Origin: a virus | Strand: one strand, 5' to 3' | Virus record (IMG/VR): IMGVR_UViG_3300031974_003900 | Coordinates: 1-51,350 of that record | Length of the DNA: 51,350 nucleotides | Part shown: in pieces, positions 5,273 to 47,649 of the stretch | Numbering within the stretch: the first letter of the stretch is position 1 | How the letters are laid out: the number at the start of each line of letters is the position of its first letter | Position numbers and translations under genes: made by a program | Notes under the pieces: model-generated | What the model saw: only the letters and a program-made list of their open reading frames with translations | The model's database searches: none | Told to the model about the DNA's origin: nothing

Positions 5273-5469
5273 AAGAACAATTAGTCAAAGCAGCACGTAT
5301 GCATGCCGAAGGTGAGCTAGAACGTGCTAAAACTAACATCATGGTTTATATGAATCAAAGTGTTGGTATTGGTGAGCATAGCGATATTGTTGAAGCTATC
5401 CAAGAAGAATTGGATAAAATGGCAGCAGCAGAAGATCGCATTGAAATGTTGAATAAACATTTTGCTTGA
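5269..5469 (+). CDS. Small conserved phage protein, helical
   Basis: A 66-residue protein, predicted helical, with VGIGEHSDIVEAIQEELDKM in the middle. I recall similar short proteins in marine T4-like phages, none with a known function. Its ATG overlaps the stop of the cysteine-rich mini-protein, and its stop overlaps the -35 box of the next promoter. A terminator follows within 50 bases, so it is probably the last gene of the first transcription unit. Confidence 0.75.
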   Translation: MKEQLVKAARMHAEGELERAKTNIMVYMNQSVGIGEHSDIVEAIQEELDKMAAAEDRIEMLNKHFA

Positions 5470-5494
5470 CAAAAACCTAAATATATGGTACACT
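5466..5494 (+). promoter_or_regulatory. Sigma70-like promoter for folE, embedded in a terminator
   Basis: TTGACA (5466-5471), a 17-base spacer and TACACT (5489-5494). The expected start site is near 5501, about 50 bases ahead of the folE ATG. The -10 box is also the left arm of the upstream terminator hairpin. Confidence 0.8.
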
Positions 5495-5517
5495 AAAATA
5501 TGAGTGTACCATTTTTT
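5487..5517 (+). terminator. Rho-independent terminator overlapping the folE promoter
   Basis: A perfect 8-bp inverted repeat (GGTACACT at 5487-5494, AGTGTACC at 5503-5510) with an 8-base loop, followed by A and six T (5512-5517). Transcripts coming from the guaC operon would form it. Transcripts starting near 5501 would lack the left arm and escape it. Confidence 0.8.
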
Positions 5518-7214: not shown

Positions 7215-7594
7215 AACAATGGTTAAAAAACATAACAGGAATTACTGCTAAAGAAAAAGAACTAGAGGCTAAAGAATTAGCAGTACTAGATAAAACAGAT
7301 CCTAAAGCTGCTGCTACTAAACGTGGCGAGCCTTGGGTAAATGTGTTGGATATGCAAGTAAATGAAGAAAACATTCGCAATGGGTTCTTTGAATTAGATT
7401 GGAACAAATACTTTATCGAAGAATTACTAGCAGCAGGATACGGTAGTGAAGGTGATGAACAGGAACAAATTGTAGATCGCTGGTTCAAGGACATTATTTT
7501 TAACATGTTACAGGAAGAAGGACTTGACACAAACAGAAATGCCGGTTATATTAATGTTGTACCAATAGAAAAAGGCAAAAGTGAAGTATCATGA
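7211..7594 (+). CDS. Conserved phage protein of unknown function
   Basis: A 127-residue acidic protein with a helical, lysine/glutamate-rich N-terminus (about 1-40) and a compact C-terminal region containing ELDWNKYFIEELLAAGYG and IVDRWFKDIIFNM. I recall similar proteins in marine T4-like phages but no assigned role. It has a strong AAGGAGG ribosome-binding site at about 7199-7205. Its last codons overlap the flap endonuclease start by four bases, so the two are probably co-expressed during replication. Confidence 0.75.
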   Translation: MKQWLKNITGITAKEKELEAKELAVLDKTDPKAAATKRGEPWVNVLDMQVNEENIRNGFFELDWNKYFIEELLAAGYGSEGDEQEQIVDRWFKDIIFNMLQEEGLDTNRNAGYINVVPIEKGKSEVS

Positions 7595-8568
7595 CTTATA
7601 TCCTAATTGACACTGCTAACACATTTTTCCGTGCTCGACACGTTGTACGTGGCGACATTGATACTAAAGTTGGCATGGCAATGCATATTACACTAAACAG
7701 TATTAAAAAAGCGTGGCAAGATTTTGACGGTTCGCACGTTGTTTTTTGCTTAGAAGGACGCAGTTGGCGCAAAGACTTTTATGAGCCATACAAGCGCAAC
7801 CGTAAAGAACACCGCGATGCAATGAGTCCACGTGAAGCAGAAGAAGATAAAGTGTTTTGGGAGATCTTTGATGAGTTTAAGAACTTTGTTACAGACAAAA
7901 CAAACTGCACCGTATTACAAAATCCTGTGCTAGAAGCAGACGATCTTATTGCAGGTTGGGTACAAGCACACCCTAATGACAATCATGTTATTATCAGTAC
8001 AGACGGTGACTTTGCACAACTTATTGCACCTAATGTACGACAGTACAATGGGGTAAGTAATACTACTATTACTCATGAAGGATATTTTGATGACAAAGGC
8101 AAGCCCGTGTGCGATAAGAAGACAGGAGAACCTAAGCCTGCTCCACAACCTGAATACATGTTGTTTGAAAAGTGTATGCGTGGCGACACTAGTGACAATG
8201 TGTTTAGCGCCTATCCAGGTGTTAGAAAAAAAGGTACAAAAAACAAAGTAGGTTTACAAGAAGCCTTTGCAGACAAAGATAATAAAGGCTACAACTGGAA
8301 TAACATGATGCTACAGCGTTGGGTAGATCATGAAGGTGCAGAGCATCGTGTGTTAGATGATTATACACGTAATGTTACATTGTGTGATTTAACTGCACAA
8401 CCTGAGCACATTAGACAAGAAATAAATAATACTATCGGTTCAGCAGAAAGTAAGAATATTTCTCAAGTTGGCATGAGACTAATGAAGTTTTGTGCTCGTT
8501 GGGATCTTCAACGTGTTGCAGATAATGCTGCACAATATGCTGAACCATTACAAGCGAGGTATAAATGA
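7591..8568 (+). CDS. rnh: T4-type RNase H / 5'-3' flap exonuclease
   Basis: These enzymes remove RNA primers and 5' flaps on the lagging strand of the phage fork. The 325-residue protein matches the family. Metal-binding acidic motifs are LIDTAN near the start (about 4-9), EADDLIAGW (about 113-121), STDGDFAQLI (about 133-142) and KCMRGDTSDNV (about 191-201) ahead of the helix-hairpin-helix-like region. The arginine/lysine-rich arch region (RSWRKDFYEPYKRNRK) is present. It overlaps both neighbours by four bases. This is one of the few replication genes here and supports assignment to a T4-like phage. Confidence 0.9.
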   Translation: MTYILIDTANTFFRARHVVRGDIDTKVGMAMHITLNSIKKAWQDFDGSHVVFCLEGRSWRKDFYEPYKRNRKEHRDAMSPREAEEDKVFWEIFDEFKNFVTDKTNCTVLQNPVLEADDLIAGWVQAHPNDNHVIISTDGDFAQLIAPNVRQYNGVSNTTITHEGYFDDKGKPVCDKKTGEPKPAPQPEYMLFEKCMRGDTSDNVFSAYPGVRKKGTKNKVGLQEAFADKDNKGYNWNNMMLQRWVDHEGAEHRVLDDYTRNVTLCDLTAQPEHIRQEINNTIGSAESKNISQVGMRLMKFCARWDLQRVADNAAQYAEPLQARYK

Positions 8569-9038
8569 CTTTTAAAGCAAAACCAGTCTTAAAAGATAAA
8601 TTTTGGATTGTAGAGCAAGAAGGTGTAAAAATTGGCACACTTAGCAAAAATGAAGAAGGATTTACTTTAACCAGTGCTGGAAAAATAAATCTTTTTAAAA
8701 CAGAAAGACAACTTAAAAAAACATACGGTAATAATTTCTTAGTTGCCAATATTAAAACAAAAGTAGGCGACACATCAAAAGACGTTCATGGATATCCTAC
8801 TAGGACTATTCCATATAACAGTATGTTTGATATCCAACGTAAATTACCTTTGTTTACAAAAAGTGAAAAATCAAAAAGTGTATATTGTGCAGGATATTAT
8901 CTAATCAAATTCAATGTAAACTGGCTTAAAAGTTATTGTCCTAAACTAATCACTGTTGAACGCAATGATTATATGGGTCCATATAAAACAGAACTAGAAA
9001 TGAAATTGGCTTTAGCAAATGTCAACAGATCCGATTAA
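8565..9038 (+). CDS. Conserved phage protein of unknown function
   Basis: A 157-residue basic protein. Its middle (about 74-112) has VHGYPTRTIPYN, MFDIQRKLPLF and SVYCAGYYLIKF blocks that I recall from proteins shared by marine T4-like phages near the RNase H gene. No enzymatic motif is visible. Four-base overlap with the endonuclease gene and 20-base overlap with the next gene. A DNA- or RNA-binding role would fit the charge but is only a guess. Confidence 0.78.
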   Translation: MTFKAKPVLKDKFWIVEQEGVKIGTLSKNEEGFTLTSAGKINLFKTERQLKKTYGNNFLVANIKTKVGDTSKDVHGYPTRTIPYNSMFDIQRKLPLFTKSEKSKSVYCAGYYLIKFNVNWLKSYCPKLITVERNDYMGPYKTELEMKLALANVNRSD

Positions 9039-9261
9039 TACTATGCCTATTCAGCAACTTATACAAATGGTAAAGGTTGCTGAACAAAGTAGAGCTAAAG
9101 AAGTTAGACTAGATATAAATCAAGCAAAAACTCTTGCGTTTACATTAGGCGAAGTAATGGCAAGATTACATGGCGATTTAGAAGCAGTGCTAGATAAAAA
9201 AATTGAAAAGCTAAACCAAGATCAAGTTATTGAGATTAATATGGACTCAGGGGGCTGGTAA
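9019..9261 (+). CDS. Small conserved phage protein
   Basis: An 80-residue protein with a helical middle (IQQLIQMVKVAEQ) and a helix that could form a coiled coil (about 45-68). It ends with an acidic, glycine-rich tail (INMDSGGW). It starts inside the previous gene in another frame. No known function. It ends just before a late-promoter octamer and closes this transcription unit. Confidence 0.7.
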   Translation: MSTDPINTMPIQQLIQMVKVAEQSRAKEVRLDINQAKTLAFTLGEVMARLHGDLEAVLDKKIEKLNQDQVIEINMDSGGW

Positions 9262-9265
9262 AAAA

Positions 9266-9273
9266 GATAAATA
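9266..9273 (+). promoter_or_regulatory. T4-type late promoter octamer GATAAATA
   Basis: It matches the NATAAATA form of the T4 late promoter. The expected start site is near 9279, inside the left arm of the hairpin that masks the start codon of the following gene. Confidence 0.6.
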
Positions 9274-9305
9274 TATGCGTAGTTTATATTAAAGGATACG
9301 CATAT
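9273..9305 (+). promoter_or_regulatory. Start-codon-sequestering RNA hairpin
   Basis: A perfect 9-bp inverted repeat: ATATGCGTA (9273-9281) pairs with TACGCATAT (9297-9305). The right arm includes the first two bases of the ATG at 9304, and the Shine-Dalgarno AAAGGA (9291-9296) is held in the 15-base loop. Read-through RNA would hide the start; RNA from the late promoter would lack most of the left arm. Confidence 0.65.
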
Positions 9306-9591
9306 GAGTAGACCCAAGCCTACAGTAAAATTAGAGTTCACTAATAAAGTTACATACAAGTGCGAACAAGTTCTTGATGCAGAGGCTATTTGGGCTGTTT
9401 TCTATCAAGATAAACCTTTTAATTTAAAAAGCAGTAATAGTTTGACAGGATATCCTGGACCTAAATATAAGAAAACAAGTTTTAGTAATCCGGGACATGC
9501 ACACAATTTAGCTAAAAAATTAAATGATATGTTTAACACAGATGAGTTTGCTGTTTTTAAATTGACAGCAGGCGAAAAATTGGATCCATGA
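9304..9591 (+). CDS. Conserved phage protein, late-regulated
   Basis: A 95-residue basic protein. LEFTNKVTYKCEQVL, SLTGYPGPKYKKTSF and SNPGHAHNLAKKLND blocks resemble a small protein family I recall from marine T4-like phages; the function is unknown. Its translation start is buried in a hairpin with a late promoter just upstream, so expression is predicted to be late in infection, perhaps for a virion-associated or lysis-time role. It overlaps the next gene by four bases. Confidence 0.78.
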   Translation: MSRPKPTVKLEFTNKVTYKCEQVLDAEAIWAVFYQDKPFNLKSSNSLTGYPGPKYKKTSFSNPGHAHNLAKKLNDMFNTDEFAVFKLTAGEKLDP

Positions 9592-9974
9592 GTAAGGTAA
9601 CTTATACAAAATTATTTCTCAAAGAATTAGGAAAAAGTTATAACGATTTAAGTGTTAAAGAGCATATGCCTCTCTGGTGGTATAACACAAGACAAAAAGA
9701 CGTAGGTGGCCTCAGGCTTACAGATGATGGCTTTGATGTAATAAACAAAATTGAATTACAAACATATGACATTCCATACCCACGTGACATGCCTATGACT
9801 ACACAAGTAATTATATTTCTAGATAAGTTTATTGATTGTCCTTATTACCTTACAAACAGAAGCATTACAGTTACAAATGAACGTAAAGCAGTTGAACTTG
9901 GTTTGTTTAGCGGAGACTTGCGCAAATATGGTTTAACAAAAGCTATGTCAAGGTCAAAGAAGGATGAGGATTGA
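9588..9974 (+). CDS. Conserved phage protein of unknown function
   Basis: A 128-residue protein with MPLWWYNTRQKDVGGLRLT near the start and FIDCPYYLTNRSITVTNE in the second half, blocks I recall in marine T4-like phages. No catalytic motif can be named. It starts with ATG inside the previous gene (four-base overlap) and overlaps the Smr-domain gene by eleven bases, so it belongs to the same late-regulated unit. Confidence 0.75.
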   Translation: MSKVTYTKLFLKELGKSYNDLSVKEHMPLWWYNTRQKDVGGLRLTDDGFDVINKIELQTYDIPYPRDMPMTTQVIIFLDKFIDCPYYLTNRSITVTNERKAVELGLFSGDLRKYGLTKAMSRSKKDED

Positions 9975-10194
9975 TTTACACGGATATCACATTCATACTG
10001 CTTGGCAACACTTCAATAGTAGAATAACCGAGGCATATTTTGCTGGACATAAAAAATGTATTGTAATTACTGGTCAAGGTGCAATGATGCGTGAATTTGA
10101 AACTTGGGCTAGAAATCATCCACGCATCAGAGAATGTAAACAAACACCAAATAATCCTGGAAGTTTTAGTGTAAAACTGAATAAAAAAGGTTGA
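9964..10194 (+). CDS. Stand-alone Smr-domain protein
   Basis: Smr (small MutS-related) domains bind or cleave branched DNA, or cleave RNA. The 76-residue protein is essentially the domain alone. It has the N-terminal LDLHG-type motif (IDLHGYHIHTA, residues 3-13) and the central glycine motif (VITGQGAMMREF, about 34-45), where the family usually has T-G-x-G. The C-terminal FSVKL strand is also present. It overlaps the upstream gene. Nuclease or junction-binding roles in recombination or packaging are plausible. Confidence 0.82.
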   Translation: MRIDLHGYHIHTAWQHFNSRITEAYFAGHKKCIVITGQGAMMREFETWARNHPRIRECKQTPNNPGSFSVKLNKKG

Positions 10195-15799: not shown

Positions 15800-17278
15800 A
15801 TGGCTTTAAAGCTAAGACGCGGATTAAGTACAAACCGTACAGATATTGTGCCTGCAGAAGGCGAATTAATATATACTACTGATACAAAAAGTATATACGT
15901 AGGAGACGGTGCCACACCTGGCGGTAACGTTGTAACTAGCAGCGGCGGCGGCGGTGGTGAAATCACAGGTATTACTGATAACACAACCGGTCCAGTGATA
16001 ACCTTAAATGATACCAATGTTACATTGGGTGTAGATTTAAATTTAGGCGGCGATCTAGATATAACTAGTTATCAAATCAATGGCGACGGCGATATAAGCA
16101 TTACAGGTGATATTACAGCAAGCGGGGTGGGTACTGGAATTATTACTGCTAACACTTTAATATCAGATAGTATAGTTTCTAATTTAACAGGTAGTGTTTT
16201 TGGTGATGATAGTTCTCCTATACTTGATGCAGTAAATGCAACTTTATTTGCAAATAGTATTACTGTTCCTGTAATATCCTCGTCTACTAATACAATTAGT
16301 GTAGGTAATTCAAGTGCTGCTACGTCAGCAAAAGTAATGTTAGATTCAGTTGACGAATCATCTATACTAACACTGCTAAGGTCAAGTGCAGATGATTTAG
16401 CAGGTCAAGATACTATTAATTATGGCGCAATACAATTTGGTAGAGAAGATGCAAACGGATTTACATATACAGGTAACATTATTGCTAGAGAAAATGCTTT
16501 GTTATTTGCATCTACTTCCACAGGTGATTTTGCTTCAGCAACAAATTACATGTCTTGGAAAGAATCTAAATTAGGTGTAGGAACAATTACTCCAACCGAA
16601 GCACTTGATGTTGTTGGAAATGCAAATGTCAGCGGTACACTAACAGCAGACACTATTGTAAGTAATGCAGCAGGTACTCCTGAAATTTCAAGTGCAGCAG
16701 GTATTGTAGTAACAGCAGTAAATGACTTTGAAGTAGATGCTGCAAATATACAAATTGACGATGTTGACTTAAAAGCAAAATTAGATATCTCTACTGAAGG
16801 TGTTTTGATGCTGGGTAAGGAAGCATCAAATGATCCTACAGCTTTTGTACCAGCAGCGGTAAATGCTCCTATACTGAGCACTATTGCCAATGACGATACA
16901 CTAGACGGTACAGACCGCGTAAAAGAAATCCTTAGATATCGTTTTGATAGATATAGTTCAGGGGGCGAAATTTTACTTGCTATCAATGATGTTGGTACAG
17001 CAACAGGTGCTGATCAATTCCTTGTTAAAAAATTCCTGTTCCATGATAGTGCAGGAGATGGAAGTGCTTGGACAGTAACAGAGATTGGCACCAGTGGTAA
17101 TGCAGGATTGTTCACTAGTTTGACTATAGGCGTAGACAATCCTGGTGGCGGAATTGACTTCTTCCTAACATTTACACTTAGATCGCCAGATGCTGCTATT
17201 TCAGGTGCAAGCATGATAGTAACAGGGCAAACAACATTTACATCAAATCCATTAACAATTACAGTAAGCGGTTACTAA
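15800..17278 (+). CDS. Tail-fibre-like virion protein
   Basis: A 492-residue protein. It starts with MALKLRRGLST, PAEGELIYTTDTKSIYVGDG and a glycine-rich turn, the N-terminal block of many phage fibre and tropism-determinant proteins. The body is Thr/Ser/Asn/Ile-rich, beta-structured, with repeats of short strands and few charges, and ends in a long hydrophobic beta region. It lies behind a late promoter octamer and directly ahead of a subtilisin-like peptidase gene. Receptor binding or a baseplate attachment role is likely. Confidence 0.85.
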   Translation: MALKLRRGLSTNRTDIVPAEGELIYTTDTKSIYVGDGATPGGNVVTSSGGGGGEITGITDNTTGPVITLNDTNVTLGVDLNLGGDLDITSYQINGDGDISITGDITASGVGTGIITANTLISDSIVSNLTGSVFGDDSSPILDAVNATLFANSITVPVISSSTNTISVGNSSAATSAKVMLDSVDESSILTLLRSSADDLAGQDTINYGAIQFGREDANGFTYTGNIIARENALLFASTSTGDFASATNYMSWKESKLGVGTITPTEALDVVGNANVSGTLTADTIVSNAAGTPEISSAAGIVVTAVNDFEVDAANIQIDDVDLKAKLDISTEGVLMLGKEASNDPTAFVPAAVNAPILSTIANDDTLDGTDRVKEILRYRFDRYSSGGEILLAINDVGTATGADQFLVKKFLFHDSAGDGSAWTVTEIGTSGNAGLFTSLTIGVDNPGGGIDFFLTFTLRSPDAAISGASMIVTGQTTFTSNPLTITVSGY

Positions 17279-20572: not shown

Positions 20573-21148
20573 ATGAAATATTTTCAAAATATAGATTTAC
20601 CAACATACAATAATTTACACAATGAATTAGAAAAATTAAATATAGAATGGTTTGAACACAAAGATCCTTTACAAGCAGCACAGATTTGTTTAAATGCGCC
20701 AAAAGGATATACCGATGATGCAAGTTTTGGCGCAGGTTATTTTATTAATGTAAAAGACAACGCAGGTACATTTGTAAGATTTACCGCTAATGGTGAAGAA
20801 CAAATTCGTTTATCCTCAGATAATTTAAAAAATTGGCCAATATGCGATGTTTTTAAAAATACAATTTTTGAAGAAATTTTTGACTTAGTAAATTGTAAAT
20901 ACAAAACTGCTAGAATACGATTCATGAAATCAAAACCTAATACAGCAATGAACTGGCACAAAGATCCTATACCTAGATTGCACTATCCTATACAGACACA
21001 ACAAGGTTGTTTAATGGTAATCGAAGACGAAGTTTATCACTTGCCATTGAACAAATGGACAATGGCACAAACACATACAGGATTTCATACTGCAATCAAT
21101 TGTAGTAGACAAGAACGTATACATTTAGTAGCCGATATCTTACCTTAG
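20573..21148 (+). CDS. 2OG-Fe(II) oxygenase-like protein, paralog B
   Basis: A 191-residue relative of the protein at 15201-15773. Both have the NWHKDPIPRLH type block (here H129, D131) and a later histidine and arginine (H172 in GFHTAINCS, R182), plus a common FKNTIFEEI segment. The N-terminal part differs. Driven by the palindromic late promoter. It overlaps the convergent radical SAM gene by nine bases. Hydroxylation target unknown. Confidence 0.7.
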   Translation: MKYFQNIDLPTYNNLHNELEKLNIEWFEHKDPLQAAQICLNAPKGYTDDASFGAGYFINVKDNAGTFVRFTANGEEQIRLSSDNLKNWPICDVFKNTIFEEIFDLVNCKYKTARIRFMKSKPNTAMNWHKDPIPRLHYPIQTQQGCLMVIEDEVYHLPLNKWTMAQTHTGFHTAINCSRQERIHLVADILP

Positions 21149-34302: not shown

Positions 34303-35116
34303 TTATTTCCTTTATTAAACTTCCTACACGTTTATTTGCCCATTCACGTTCTTCACACCACCAACATTCGCCACATTCTGGTATATGCATACCTGCTTGA
34401 TAATCTTTAAAATGACCACAAGCGTCTTTTACAACATCGTGATGATTTATATCGCCTTCACAACTGCGTGTGGTTTCGTATAAATCCAATATATTGTGTA
34501 TATAATACTGTGTTACTATCCAATCTTTTTTAACAAATCTAAATGGGTGTACAAATGTTGCATTTACTTTGCCGCTGTAAAACCACAAATCAGTTAGTTG
34601 TCCGTCTTCAGCATCTTTGTCTCTGTTGGTCATGCGATCTTCACGCAAATCATCAGGATTTTTACTAGTTGCATTATAAACAGCATCCAAGTTGTATTCC
34701 CATGCAGCAAATTTGTTGAAACTGCCAACAATGATTTGATCGCCGCTGCGTCCGTCTATTACAGGACCAATAACTCCGTGTTCTAATTCTGGTGGAATAT
34801 ATGTTGTATACCTGTTTTCAATAATGTAAGGAAACAAGTCTTTCAATTTGTTAAAAACTTGCATAGAAATATGGCCTTGCCACGGTCTTGTTTCCCAACA
34901 ACGTTGATATGTTATAACATCAACTTTAGTATTTAAGTTATATCTTTGTATCATACTACAAAGTAAATATGTAAGTAATGCACTATCTGCACCACCGCTT
35001 AAATTTACACCAATACGTTGCCATTTTTCGTCTATAGGAATGCTTAGATGCGACACAGTATGTAGCAAAACATTATCAGCAATATTTTTATAAAGACTAT
35101 TGTTTACTTCATACAT
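34286..35116 (-). CDS. PP-loop ATPase with a QueC-like zinc knuckle, copy 2
   Basis: A 276-residue protein. LSGGADSAL (39-47) is the PP-loop. The zinc knuckle is C219 in TRSCEG and C248-x2-C251-x2-C254 (CGECWWC) with a following ER-x-W. It is longer than copy 1 at both ends. It overlaps the N-twitch radical SAM gene at 35109 by eight bases. The same pairing occurs at 36434/37272, which argues that each PP-loop enzyme has its own radical SAM partner. Confidence 0.85.
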   Translation of the reverse strand: MYEVNNSLYKNIADNVLLHTVSHLSIPIDEKWQRIGVNLSGGADSALLTYLLCSMIQRYNLNTKVDVITYQRCWETRPWQGHISMQVFNKLKDLFPYIIENRYTTYIPPELEHGVIGPVIDGRSGDQIIVGSFNKFAAWEYNLDAVYNATSKNPDDLREDRMTNRDKDAEDGQLTDLWFYSGKVNATFVHPFRFVKKDWIVTQYYIHNILDLYETTRSCEGDINHHDVVKDACGHFKDYQAGMHIPECGECWWCEEREWANKRVGSLIKEINDYNR

Positions 35117-36437
35117 TATATACTAGTTCTCCGTCTACAAACTTAAAACGTTGTATATGATCATTAAAGTTTTGATTCCATAATGTATCTGATTTAGGAA
35201 TATACTTTAACAATGCTTGATAATCTTTATTTGTGGCTTGGTGTTTCATAACATATTCTCGTACTTGCTCAATGGCTTGTAATGCACTGGTAATATCAGT
35301 CCACCATCCGTATTTTATTTCTTCATCCCAAACATAATTATACATTTCTTTGGTTGTAAGTATATTTCTTCTACGTTCTTTATCTATTTTAATTACAGCA
35401 TTCCTAGCGTTTTCAATTTCGTTTAAAGTAGGACCTCTAAATTTTAACATCATTACACTTGGATTTAAATATGCAGGTGTGTAAACAATGCTGCAATTTA
35501 TGTAATCTAATTCAAGTGATAAGAATCCACGCATAACATCTTCAAATTCCATTATCTGATATACACTTGTAGTGCATACTAGGTTTATATGACTGTGCTT
35601 GTTATCAACTGCTTTGAATTTTTCTATGTTTTCTTTAAGTTTATTCCAATCGCCTTGCCTAAAGTATGGATACAAGCGAGGTCCTGCATCTACACTTATC
35701 ATTATATTACAATATCCAAATTTTTTCAAGAGAAAACTTAGGGCTTCTGGATCAAAATCTGCATTAAAGTTACTGTGGAATATAATTTTTATGTTTTTAG
35801 CATTTGGGTGTTCACTAAGTTTTTCCAGTGTAGGCAAAAACTGCTTTTGATATAGTACTTCTCCGCCTGCAAAATCAATGCGTTCCAAGTTAGGAAAGTT
35901 TTTGTTTAAATCTTCTGCTATTTCCAATGCACGTTTGGTGCTAATTTGCATAGTAAAATCATCATCCGTTGACGATCTATGCATACGTCCAGTAAGTTGA
36001 TGTAATTGATGCTTGTGATCTTCCTCGTCGGGTGTATATCCTTTGAGTTTTTTCATCCAACCGCTGCTAAACACTTGACTACAGTGCAAACAAGCCATAT
36101 TACAACTATGACTAAAACGTATTTCTACTGTTTTCAATCCTGCAAAATCTACTTCGCCTGTTTCTGGATTATAATGTTCAAGATCTGCTTCTTGTTCTTG
36201 GCGCATACTTGTACCACTACGGTCACGTTCAACATGCTCGCACATGTCGCAACCAAAACTCCATTCACCACGCATCATTTCTAATCTATGTTTGCGGAAT
36301 AGTTCGTTGTTGTAAAACTCGCTGGGTAACCAAGCATCATCTAGTATTTGCATTTTTTCATGCTGCTGCGGACAACTTGTTACAAAGCCATTTTTAAAGT
36401 TCAATCCACCTATTGTGTAGTAGCAAGGTAAACTCAT
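35109..36437 (-). CDS. Radical SAM protein with N-terminal twitch domain, divergent
   Basis: A 442-residue protein. N-terminal cysteines C5, C22, C63 and C66 (one fewer than most of its relatives, as the CC pair is a single cysteine); core cluster C112-x3-C116-x2-C119 (HSCNMACLHC). The usual GGEP reads FAGGEVL, with valine for proline. It overlaps the PP-loop gene on both sides (34286 and 36434). Divergence in the auxiliary and SAM sites suggests a changed substrate or activity. Confidence 0.85.
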   Translation of the reverse strand: MSLPCYYTIGGLNFKNGFVTSCPQQHEKMQILDDAWLPSEFYNNELFRKHRLEMMRGEWSFGCDMCEHVERDRSGTSMRQEQEADLEHYNPETGEVDFAGLKTVEIRFSHSCNMACLHCSQVFSSGWMKKLKGYTPDEEDHKHQLHQLTGRMHRSSTDDDFTMQISTKRALEIAEDLNKNFPNLERIDFAGGEVLYQKQFLPTLEKLSEHPNAKNIKIIFHSNFNADFDPEALSFLLKKFGYCNIMISVDAGPRLYPYFRQGDWNKLKENIEKFKAVDNKHSHINLVCTTSVYQIMEFEDVMRGFLSLELDYINCSIVYTPAYLNPSVMMLKFRGPTLNEIENARNAVIKIDKERRRNILTTKEMYNYVWDEEIKYGWWTDITSALQAIEQVREYVMKHQATNKDYQALLKYIPKSDTLWNQNFNDHIQRFKFVDGELVYNV

Positions 36438-45693: not shown

Positions 45694-46279
45694 ATTTGAA
45701 GCGTACGACGGATCACAGGATCTAACACAATGGTTTGTAGATGCCGAAAAGCATGGATACTACAATAACAGTAGTAAAGAAATGCTTATTGATTATATTG
45801 CAAAATACGAAGATGCAACACTGTTTTTGCTTTACTACAACGATAAAATTGTAGGTAATAGTGTTGTACATAGTTTAAAAGGCTTAGGTATACTAGGTAA
45901 GGATGCTTACAGAATTGGTGCTAGAACTTGTCTAGTAAGAGATCATATCGACGGTAATAGAGTTTATGCTCCTAGATCGTGGGGACCAATAAACCATCAT
46001 ACACTGCAAATGTTATTTCCAGTTTGCATTGAACATGTTGGTAGAGATAAACCAGTTTACATTAGTACGCACGAAGGTGGTGTAGGCAGTCAAAATCGTG
46101 TTCATAGAGTATGGACAAAACGTTTCACTAATCAACTTGGTGTAACAAAAGACCCTATTGAATTAGAGTACAAAGGTACGTTTCAAACATTTTATCGTAT
46201 CGATGTAGATCGCTTGTACGAATTGCTAAAAGATGCAAGATGGCCAGAAGCAGAACAAGCCATTCCTCTTTTTAGTTAA
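45650..46279 (+). CDS. GNAT-like acyltransferase, partner of AMP ligase copy 2
   Basis: A 209-residue protein (or 197 from TTG 45686, which has AGGA upstream and a smaller overlap). The HGYYNNSSKEML and LFLLYYNDKIVGNSVVH blocks match those of the GNAT at 23425. A TCLVRDHIDGNRVYAPRSWG stretch lies where the CoA-binding core is expected, but no classic Q/R-x-x-G-x-G/A is clear. Acyl transfer with the neighbouring ligase is inferred from the duplicated gene pair. Its stop overlaps the convergent radical SAM stop. Confidence 0.65.
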   Translation: MTIYVKFLGIKNLYRFEAYDGSQDLTQWFVDAEKHGYYNNSSKEMLIDYIAKYEDATLFLLYYNDKIVGNSVVHSLKGLGILGKDAYRIGARTCLVRDHIDGNRVYAPRSWGPINHHTLQMLFPVCIEHVGRDKPVYISTHEGGVGSQNRVHRVWTKRFTNQLGVTKDPIELEYKGTFQTFYRIDVDRLYELLKDARWPEAEQAIPLFS

Positions 46280-47649
46280 ACGTATTTTCTGCAAAGTTCA
46301 AAAAAGTCCGACATTTCAGGAAACGCTGCGGTAAAATCATTGCCGCGGCGTTTGTCTTGTTCAGTAAAGAAATTGTGAAAATCTCTGCGTCCTTGAATAA
46401 TTTTATCCAATGGATATTCAGTAGTTTCCATATAATCTACTACACGTCTAAACTTTTCATATTCTATAGTGCTAAACGCATCTTTGCGATTGTCATCTAC
46501 ATTTTCTTTAATAAATTGTAAATGATCATGCATATAACTCATGTAGTTTTTAGGTAGTATGTTTATGTCATATTGTAGCGGTTCTTTTAAATGTGGTGTA
46601 TCAAAACCCAAACGCTGCCATCTGTGTGTTTCTACATCATTGTATTTTGCACGCCATTCTAATATTTTTTCTAACAGTGTGCGGAATGTTGTAACACTAA
46701 AGATATTAAATGTAATCATCAACACCATAGGCGCTTCACAGTTACGCATAAAGTAATCCAAATTACGTTCAAATGTTTTGATGTCTAAGCCATCACGAAT
46801 ATACTCTGCCCGTTTTCCCCAGGTATCAATACTTGTAAACATTTTGAATCGTCTAATCTTATTGTTTGTAAGCAAATCATTTACACGGTTAGTAAACTTT
46901 TCTAGTTGCTTTGGCTTACCACCTAAGTTGCTGTTGCAGTTTAATTCTAACTCTGGCTTAGGATCTGCATCCAGCATATCAAACAACTTGTATGTACTTT
47001 TTTGTATTGTAGGTTCGCCGCCTGTAATACGCAGTATATGTAGCTCTTTACTAAGCTCAGGCCACCAACGCCAAAATGCATCTAAATACGGATTGTTTTC
47101 TTCTTCAAAAATTTGAAACCAATCAATATCGCATCTATGATTTTTTACATTTGTATATGGACCGTGTTGAGCAATTTCTTGATAATATCTACTACTTGCT
47201 TTAGGATGACAATATCCGCAGCGGAAGTTACATTCGTTTCCAAAACTGACTTCTAAGTATTCTGGGTTTACGTCAAACTCTGCTCCGCCTTCTTTCACTG
47301 CTGCTAATCTGTGCTTAAAAAATATAGTTTGATTACGCTGTTTCCTATCACTAACATAATCTTTACCCATTGCTTCAATTTTCCAGCAATAATTACAACC
47401 ACTAGGTTGTTCACCACGCATCATAGCAGCACGTTCTTGTTTCTTTTGTGCTGTGTTATGTATTGCACTTGGATTTTCTAATAATGGTGCTGTATCAATC
47501 TTGTGCGGTGCTGGATGATAACAACTGTGTGTTTCACCTGTTTGGAAATATATGTTAGCATGATACCATTTAGCAAAACAAAACGTAGGTGATATTTCCT
47601 GCGTAATAGTATCAATACGCTTTATTTCTTCGCTTTCGCTGCGTTCCAT
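46276..47649 (-). CDS. Radical SAM protein with N-terminal twitch cysteine domain
   Basis: A 457-residue protein. N-terminal cysteines C24, C43, C85 and C88 (TFCFAKW, HSCYH, CNYC); core cluster C140-x3-C144-x2-C147 (NECNFRCGYC); ITGGEPT motif. It belongs with the four N-twitch proteins of region 4 but is encoded next to glycosyltransferases. It ends convergent with the GNAT gene and overlaps the glycosyltransferase gene by one base. The N-terminal 15 residues are charged and unlike its paralogs. Confidence 0.88.
   Translation of the reverse strand: MERSESEEIKRIDTITQEISPTFCFAKWYHANIYFQTGETHSCYHPAPHKIDTAPLLENPSAIHNTAQKKQERAAMMRGEQPSGCNYCWKIEAMGKDYVSDRKQRNQTIFFKHRLAAVKEGGAEFDVNPEYLEVSFGNECNFRCGYCHPKASSRYYQEIAQHGPYTNVKNHRCDIDWFQIFEEENNPYLDAFWRWWPELSKELHILRITGGEPTIQKSTYKLFDMLDADPKPELELNCNSNLGGKPKQLEKFTNRVNDLLTNNKIRRFKMFTSIDTWGKRAEYIRDGLDIKTFERNLDYFMRNCEAPMVLMITFNIFSVTTFRTLLEKILEWRAKYNDVETHRWQRLGFDTPHLKEPLQYDINILPKNYMSYMHDHLQFIKENVDDNRKDAFSTIEYEKFRRVVDYMETTEYPLDKIIQGRRDFHNFFTEQDKRRGNDFTAAFPEMSDFFELCRKYV

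Follow-up and report, generated by a model that had tools for sequence, protein, structure and literature searches.

The closest described systems come from phage T4 and its relatives. In T4 genes e and soc, the late promoter lies in the region that encodes the 5' strand of a helix masking the Shine-Dalgarno sequence (SD) and the AUG; the long early RNA is silent and the late RNA is translated (PMC3014915). A late promoter combined with a hairpin also gives late-only translation of I-TevI, I-TevII, I-TevIII, segB and Aeh1 mobE, which are carried on early or middle polycistrons (PMC2988022). In T4 gene 49, which encodes endonuclease VII and is a late gene carried on early transcripts, AATAAATA runs directly into the left arm ACCCTTA, whose pairing partner TAAGGGT immediately precedes the AUG. 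The promoter word NATAAATA is the late promoter of the T4-like cyanophages S-PM2 and Syn9 (PMC2984593), for which no hairpin-nested late promoter was found in the literature examined. Here, we analyzed a 51,350-base IMG/VR record, referred to as the window herein, in which a promoter of this type, a hairpin and a start codon come together in front of a gene for a 95-aa protein (Table 1).

Table 1. Features of the window and of related loci
Feature	Position or locus	Strand	Basis or remark
Sigma70-like promoter with its -10 inside a hairpin arm	5466..5512		
Sigma70-like promoter TTGACA, 17 nt, TATATT	7524..7552	+	11/12 consensus matches; proposed read-through RNA source
Exonuclease (phrog_107), first gene of upstream co-directional operon	7591..8568	+	PHROGs E 2.5e-38
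157-aa ORF (phrog_15898), function unassigned	8565..9038	+	overlaps exonuclease gene
80-aa ORF	9019..9261	+	stops 5 nt 5' of late promoter
Late promoter GATAAATA (T4-type NATAAATA)	9266..9273	+	sequence, conservation in orthologue leaders
Hairpin left arm ATATGCGTA	9273..9281	+	bases through 9278 missing from predicted late RNA
Predicted late transcription start	9279	+	promoter first base = -13, inferred from T4 layout
SD AAAGGA, inside hairpin loop	9291..9296	+	sequence
Hairpin right arm TACGCATAT	9297..9305	+	covers start codon's first two bases; tracks left-arm changes in relatives
95-aa conserved late gene (MSRPKPTV...)	9304..9591	+	no Pfam/PHROGs family
128-aa ORF	9588..9974	+	start overlaps 95-aa gene's stop (ATGA); sequence
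Smr-domain ORF, overlaps 128-aa ORF	9964..10194	+	Pfam Smr E 1.4e-9
Mtd_N-domain structural protein, window orthologue	15800..17278		
Asp/Arg beta-hydroxylase domain protein	20573..21148	+	
Radical-SAM-like protein	35109..36437	-	
Radical-SAM-like protein	46276..47649	-	
CTRCGYAKWTAACT/TRCGYAKWTAAY element, example	window 38698	-	
CTRCGYAKWTAACT/TRCGYAKWTAAY element, further examples	G003:37282; G002:95525		
Stem ACTGTGCA/TGCACAGT	L053		
Stem ATATCATACT/AGTATGATAT	L242		
Stem CACCAATCTTTAA/TTAAAGATTGGTG	L413		left arm 5' of promoter
Stem GTTAACTCCT/AGGAGTTAAC	L013		left arm 5' of promoter; SD covered
Stem ATATGTGTA/TACACATAT	L402-L405		
Mtd_N gene sites	L123-L142; G002:52494; G004:74053; G001:81330		
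Mtd_N gene stem CTCCTAGGTGATA/TATCACCTAGGAG	L123		
Mtd_N gene stem CTCCTAGAGTGATA/TATCACTCTAGGAG	L134		

A sequence-only reading of this DNA had described a perfect 9-bp inverted repeat that takes in the start of an ATG and holds the SD in its loop. Both parts of this description were borne out, as the two arms are complementary at 9/9 positions across a 15-nt spacer, the ATG begins within the right arm, and AAAGGA lies between the arms. A U9272-G9306 wobble extends the predicted stem to 10 bp, in which the whole AUG is paired. When positions 9256-9326 were folded, the stem was the predicted minimum-energy structure (-13.1 kcal/mol), while shuffles of the same segment gave -7.5 ± 2.3 kcal/mol (z -2.4). 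The stability of the hairpin in this single sequence is suggestive and only moderately unusual; since 5/200 shuffles folded equally well, the case rests on the relatives of this locus.

The first base of the 8-mer in T4 late promoters is -13 (PMC2988020). An RNA beginning at the corresponding position in the window would lack 6/9 left-arm bases and keep 3/9 pairs, which fits the earlier proposal that late RNA starts at about 9279 and loses most of the left arm. As a measure of the mask, we used the free-energy cost of opening positions -13 to +3 in RNA arriving from upstream versus RNA whose 5' end is set 13 nt downstream of the first promoter base. For the window, the predicted cost fell from 10.2 kcal/mol for the read-through transcript to 1.9 kcal/mol for the late one (difference 8.3 kcal/mol), in line with the claim of a masked read-through RNA and an open late RNA. 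The same script returned differences of 14.4, 7.3, 12.8 and 11.9 kcal/mol for the T4 positives e, soc, I-TevII and gene 49, respectively. When the 5' end was stepped along the window, the opening cost was 6.3 kcal/mol at 9277, where five pairs are left and the predicted mask persists, 2.5 kcal/mol at 9278 and about 2 kcal/mol at 9279, so that the predicted mask is gone only when the RNA begins at 9278 or later. T4 gene 49 showed a similar drop across equal promoter distances. Given this sharp edge at 9277-9279, the left arm appears to be positioned so that a late start at the usual distance is just enough to remove it.

The sequence-only reading had likened the locus to T4 e and soc. The predicted device is the same, with the late promoter placed within the region of the masking helix's 5' strand; the genes are different, e has two late promoters, and unlike e and soc the window has its SD in the loop and its AUG in the stem. 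By geometry the nearest system is instead gene 49, in which the arm follows the promoter at once and spans the start site, and late RNA is likewise predicted to be free of the mask, although gene and stem sequence are unrelated to those of the window and published work covers T4 only. The homing endonuclease leaders share the combination of late promoter and hairpin but belong to mobile endonuclease genes, whereas the 95-aa gene is conserved, small and without an endonuclease match. With the marine T4-like cyanophages the window shares the promoter word (PMC2984593). No sequence match to the 95-aa protein was found in Pfam, PHROGs or PDB. Its AlphaFold model (mean pLDDT 77.5) had no match below E 1 among PDB folds, and its sole hits at E <= 0.001 in a comparison with viral models were two uncharacterised phage proteins.

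The three ORFs upstream of the promoter overlap serially and are co-directional with the 95-aa gene, and no terminator-like sites were found on the + strand between the 7524 promoter and 9304. Since promoter-like sites near 7524 were as frequent as in shuffles (22 vs 21, no enrichment), the consensus match at 7524 is a lead, not proof. Together, the overlapping ORFs, the 7524 promoter and the lack of a terminator place the late gene inside an apparently early operon, which is also where T4 employs the masking device. The 128-aa ORF probably belongs to the late unit of the 95-aa gene. Elsewhere in the window, at 5466, a sigma70-like promoter (TTGACA...TACACT) has its -10 in the left arm of a 10-bp hairpin with TTTTTT behind it; a transcript arriving from upstream could fold into a terminator there, which one started locally would lack. 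Among 190 promoter-like sites, one other such design was seen, and it was weaker.

To the late promoter itself, several observations apply. Across four long related contigs, there are 56 copies of GATAAATA versus 11 of the reversed word, and most of its sites are a short way 5' of an SD and start codon, in many cases those of a large ORF; the distance to the SD and ATG of these large ORFs is commonly 22-45 nt. ATAAATA is depleted across the window, with 9 copies observed versus 30 expected. Homologues of the T4 late sigma factor gp55 were found in 3/4 of the long related contigs, and the one checked matched phrog_12791, annotated 'sigma factor for late transcription' (PHROGs E 1.1e-78); a gp55-like sigma factor was not found within the 51-kb window, which is a genome fragment. 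Thus, two elements of gp55-type late transcription, NATAAATA promoters before late genes and a phage-encoded gp55-like sigma factor, were found, the latter in relatives. A further element, CTRCGYAKWTAACT, lies 7-10 nt 5' of GATAAATA in about 34 of the 80 loci first collected for the 95-aa protein (e.g. L010, L042, L054), and the left arm and loop that follow the promoter consist of a second copy of its core, TRCGYAKWTAAY. This core was counted 15 times in five contigs versus 2 times each for the reversed and complemented patterns.

Orthologues of the 95-aa gene were found at IMG/VR loci and in the phages Phosso, PA5oct, Atu_ph07 and SCTP-2. The first IMG/VR search with the protein yielded 80 loci, and with three further searches the collection grew to 318 loci. 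Their upstream regions comprise 222 distinct sequences, and 218 of these combine a start codon with a NATAAATA-type promoter. Nearly all of the first 80 loci keep GATAAATATATRCGTA upstream and TACGYAT at the start codon. In this first set, the central stem pair 9277/9301 is GC in 52 cases, AU in 17, GU in 5 and UA in 2, with no mispairs, and pairing of each left arm with its own right arm beat pairing with swapped arms (0/20,000 permutations as good). A MAFFT alignment scored on the given stem had 92.7% of its cells paired, with 18 cells changed on both sides; this score exceeded all 500 shuffles and collapsed when the partner was slid by one column. More than 10 unrelated stem sequences occur among the orthologues (e.g. 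L053, L242, L271, L413, L384, L404, L013), the left arm may follow the promoter or precede it by as much as ~20 nt, and the distance between the arms (loop length) ranges continuously over 6-17 nt in the first set. Across the orthologues, the predicted structure is preserved while the stem sequence is replaced.

The difference in opening cost between read-through and late RNA was then compared across leaders. Over the 218 distinct leaders its median was 6.6 kcal/mol, and it was at least 4 kcal/mol in 169/218, versus 32/300 non-late genes of related contigs. Chimeric leaders, in which the upstream part of one locus was joined to the downstream part of another, had a median of 3.2 kcal/mol, or 1.7 kcal/mol where the arms differ, and none of 20,000 permutations reached the true mean difference (70-locus subset). 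Co-variation of the arm bases, which the sequence-only reading had proposed looking for, is therefore present, with self-pairing ahead of every swap in both permutation tests (20,000 each), and the inverted repeat on whose conservation that reading depended is retained in relatives as a predicted mask. Parsimony on the protein tree gave 11 G/A-pair switches; as the tree is poorly resolved, with few supported forks, it is uncertain how many of the compensatory events were independent, and an independent-pairs test had too few pairs for significance.

These data also bear on what else the repeat could be. It might be a DNA operator at which a dimeric repressor, perhaps the gene product itself as with I-TevI, blocks the late promoter: the repeat overlaps the downstream edge of that promoter, I-TevI binds an operator over its own late promoter (PMC2988022), and the left arm includes a copy of the recurrent element TRCGYAKWTAAY. 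We regard this as improbable, since arm spacing runs continuously, the left arm lies on either side of the promoter, its sequence takes more than 10 unrelated forms, and the conserved feature is pairing with the SD or AUG, not a site. The hairpin might also work in the late RNA, as a thermosensor, a protein-binding operator or a 5' stabiliser, if the late start were upstream of the arm. With the 5' end at 9277 or further upstream, at least five pairs would survive, and the fold, predicted to hold from 4 to 37 C, loosens on warming, but the T4 late promoter layout gives +1 at 9279, and in L013, L413 and L384, as at the second gene described below (L123-L142), the arm is 5' of the promoter and is excluded from any downstream start; the likelihood of this explanation is accordingly slight. 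A functionless palindrome produced by chance or composition in AT-rich DNA would agree with the modest single-sequence z-score and the shuffles that fold as well, but is out of reach, with a negligible probability, because own arms outdid all swapped arms in both 20,000-fold permutation tests, and co-variation and the recurrence of the mask in 169/218 leaders likewise stand against it. A mini-ORF in the left arm and loop (ATG CGT AGT TTA TAT TAA, 9275-9292) was also considered and rejected, as many relatives read ATA for the ATG.

The late-activated lock is not universal, since 49/218 leaders have a mask below 4 kcal/mol and a Phosso-related group (e.g. L364-L373) has little or no predicted mask. 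In the cultured phages, the mask difference was 8.8 kcal/mol for Agrobacterium phage Atu_ph07, 4.2 kcal/mol for PA5oct, 2.4 kcal/mol for Phosso and -0.6 kcal/mol for SCTP-2; the late promoter is conserved across these phages despite the varying mask, which is strong only in Atu_ph07 and absent in SCTP-2. Terminator-like hairpins lie 5' of the orthologue's late promoter in PA5oct and Phosso (L083, L082), possibly as another way to limit read-through. A literature search found no usable RNA data on the PA5oct orthologue.

Masks of at least 5 kcal/mol were predicted for 20/64 genes with NATAAATA promoters versus 23/300 other genes in the four related contigs and the window. A stricter control by dinucleotide shuffling of the upstream region was less clear, with 19/64 late genes in the top 10% versus 8/100 controls; this control is weak for arms in the 5-nt gap between promoter and start, because so short a stretch hardly shuffles. 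It is conceivable, if somewhat doubtful, that read-through masking controls late genes generally across this phage lineage and is not a trick of a few genes. On this reading, the mask of one gene would be maintained through repeated exchange of the entire stem, the left arm lying upstream of the promoter, across it or downstream of it. A second late gene, encoding an Mtd_N-domain structural protein, convincingly shares the design of a late promoter within a hairpin in relatives, where the first half of the promoter lies within the left arm, the right arm is the SD, and the mask amounts to 5.9-14.5 kcal/mol (L123-L142). The window's own Mtd_N gene has a difference of 2.8 kcal/mol and is not clearly masked. 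The window also encodes two radical-SAM-like proteins and an Asp/Arg beta-hydroxylase domain protein, which are unusual phage cargo.

In the mechanism that we propose, RNA reading in from the upstream, apparently early operon would carry both hairpin arms, and since the hairpin would bury the AUG and constrain the SD, the 95-aa gene would be silent early. Late in infection, polymerase with a gp55-type sigma factor would start inside the left arm, at about 9279, and the resulting 25-nt leader would be unable to re-form the stem, allowing the 95-aa gene to be translated, presumably along with the overlapping 128-aa ORF. From the computed elements, namely the conserved promoter word, the hairpin with its co-varying arms, the predicted difference in accessibility and the gp55 homologue in relatives, we infer the early read-through, the exact start and the translational effect, and consider it highly probable that the 95-aa gene is under a late-activated translational lock. 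As in the class formed by T4 e, soc, gene 49 and I-TevI, SD/AUG sequestration and loss of the arm in late RNA are predicted, and the structure is conserved and co-varies. This strong comparative evidence supports the prediction of the T4 device at a new, widely distributed gene.

A few coliphage and Aeromonas phage genes are known to use the hairpin-nested late promoter of T4. In the loci compared here, one small gene appears to show the device across hundreds of uncultivated, largely metagenomic contigs and some cultured jumbo phages. The many natural variants make its rule testable, both in where the arm must lie relative to the start site and in how much masking is needed, and the cultured relatives allow direct tests of the lock. 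The predicted lock also marks the 95-aa protein as one whose production these phages seem to hold back until late in infection.
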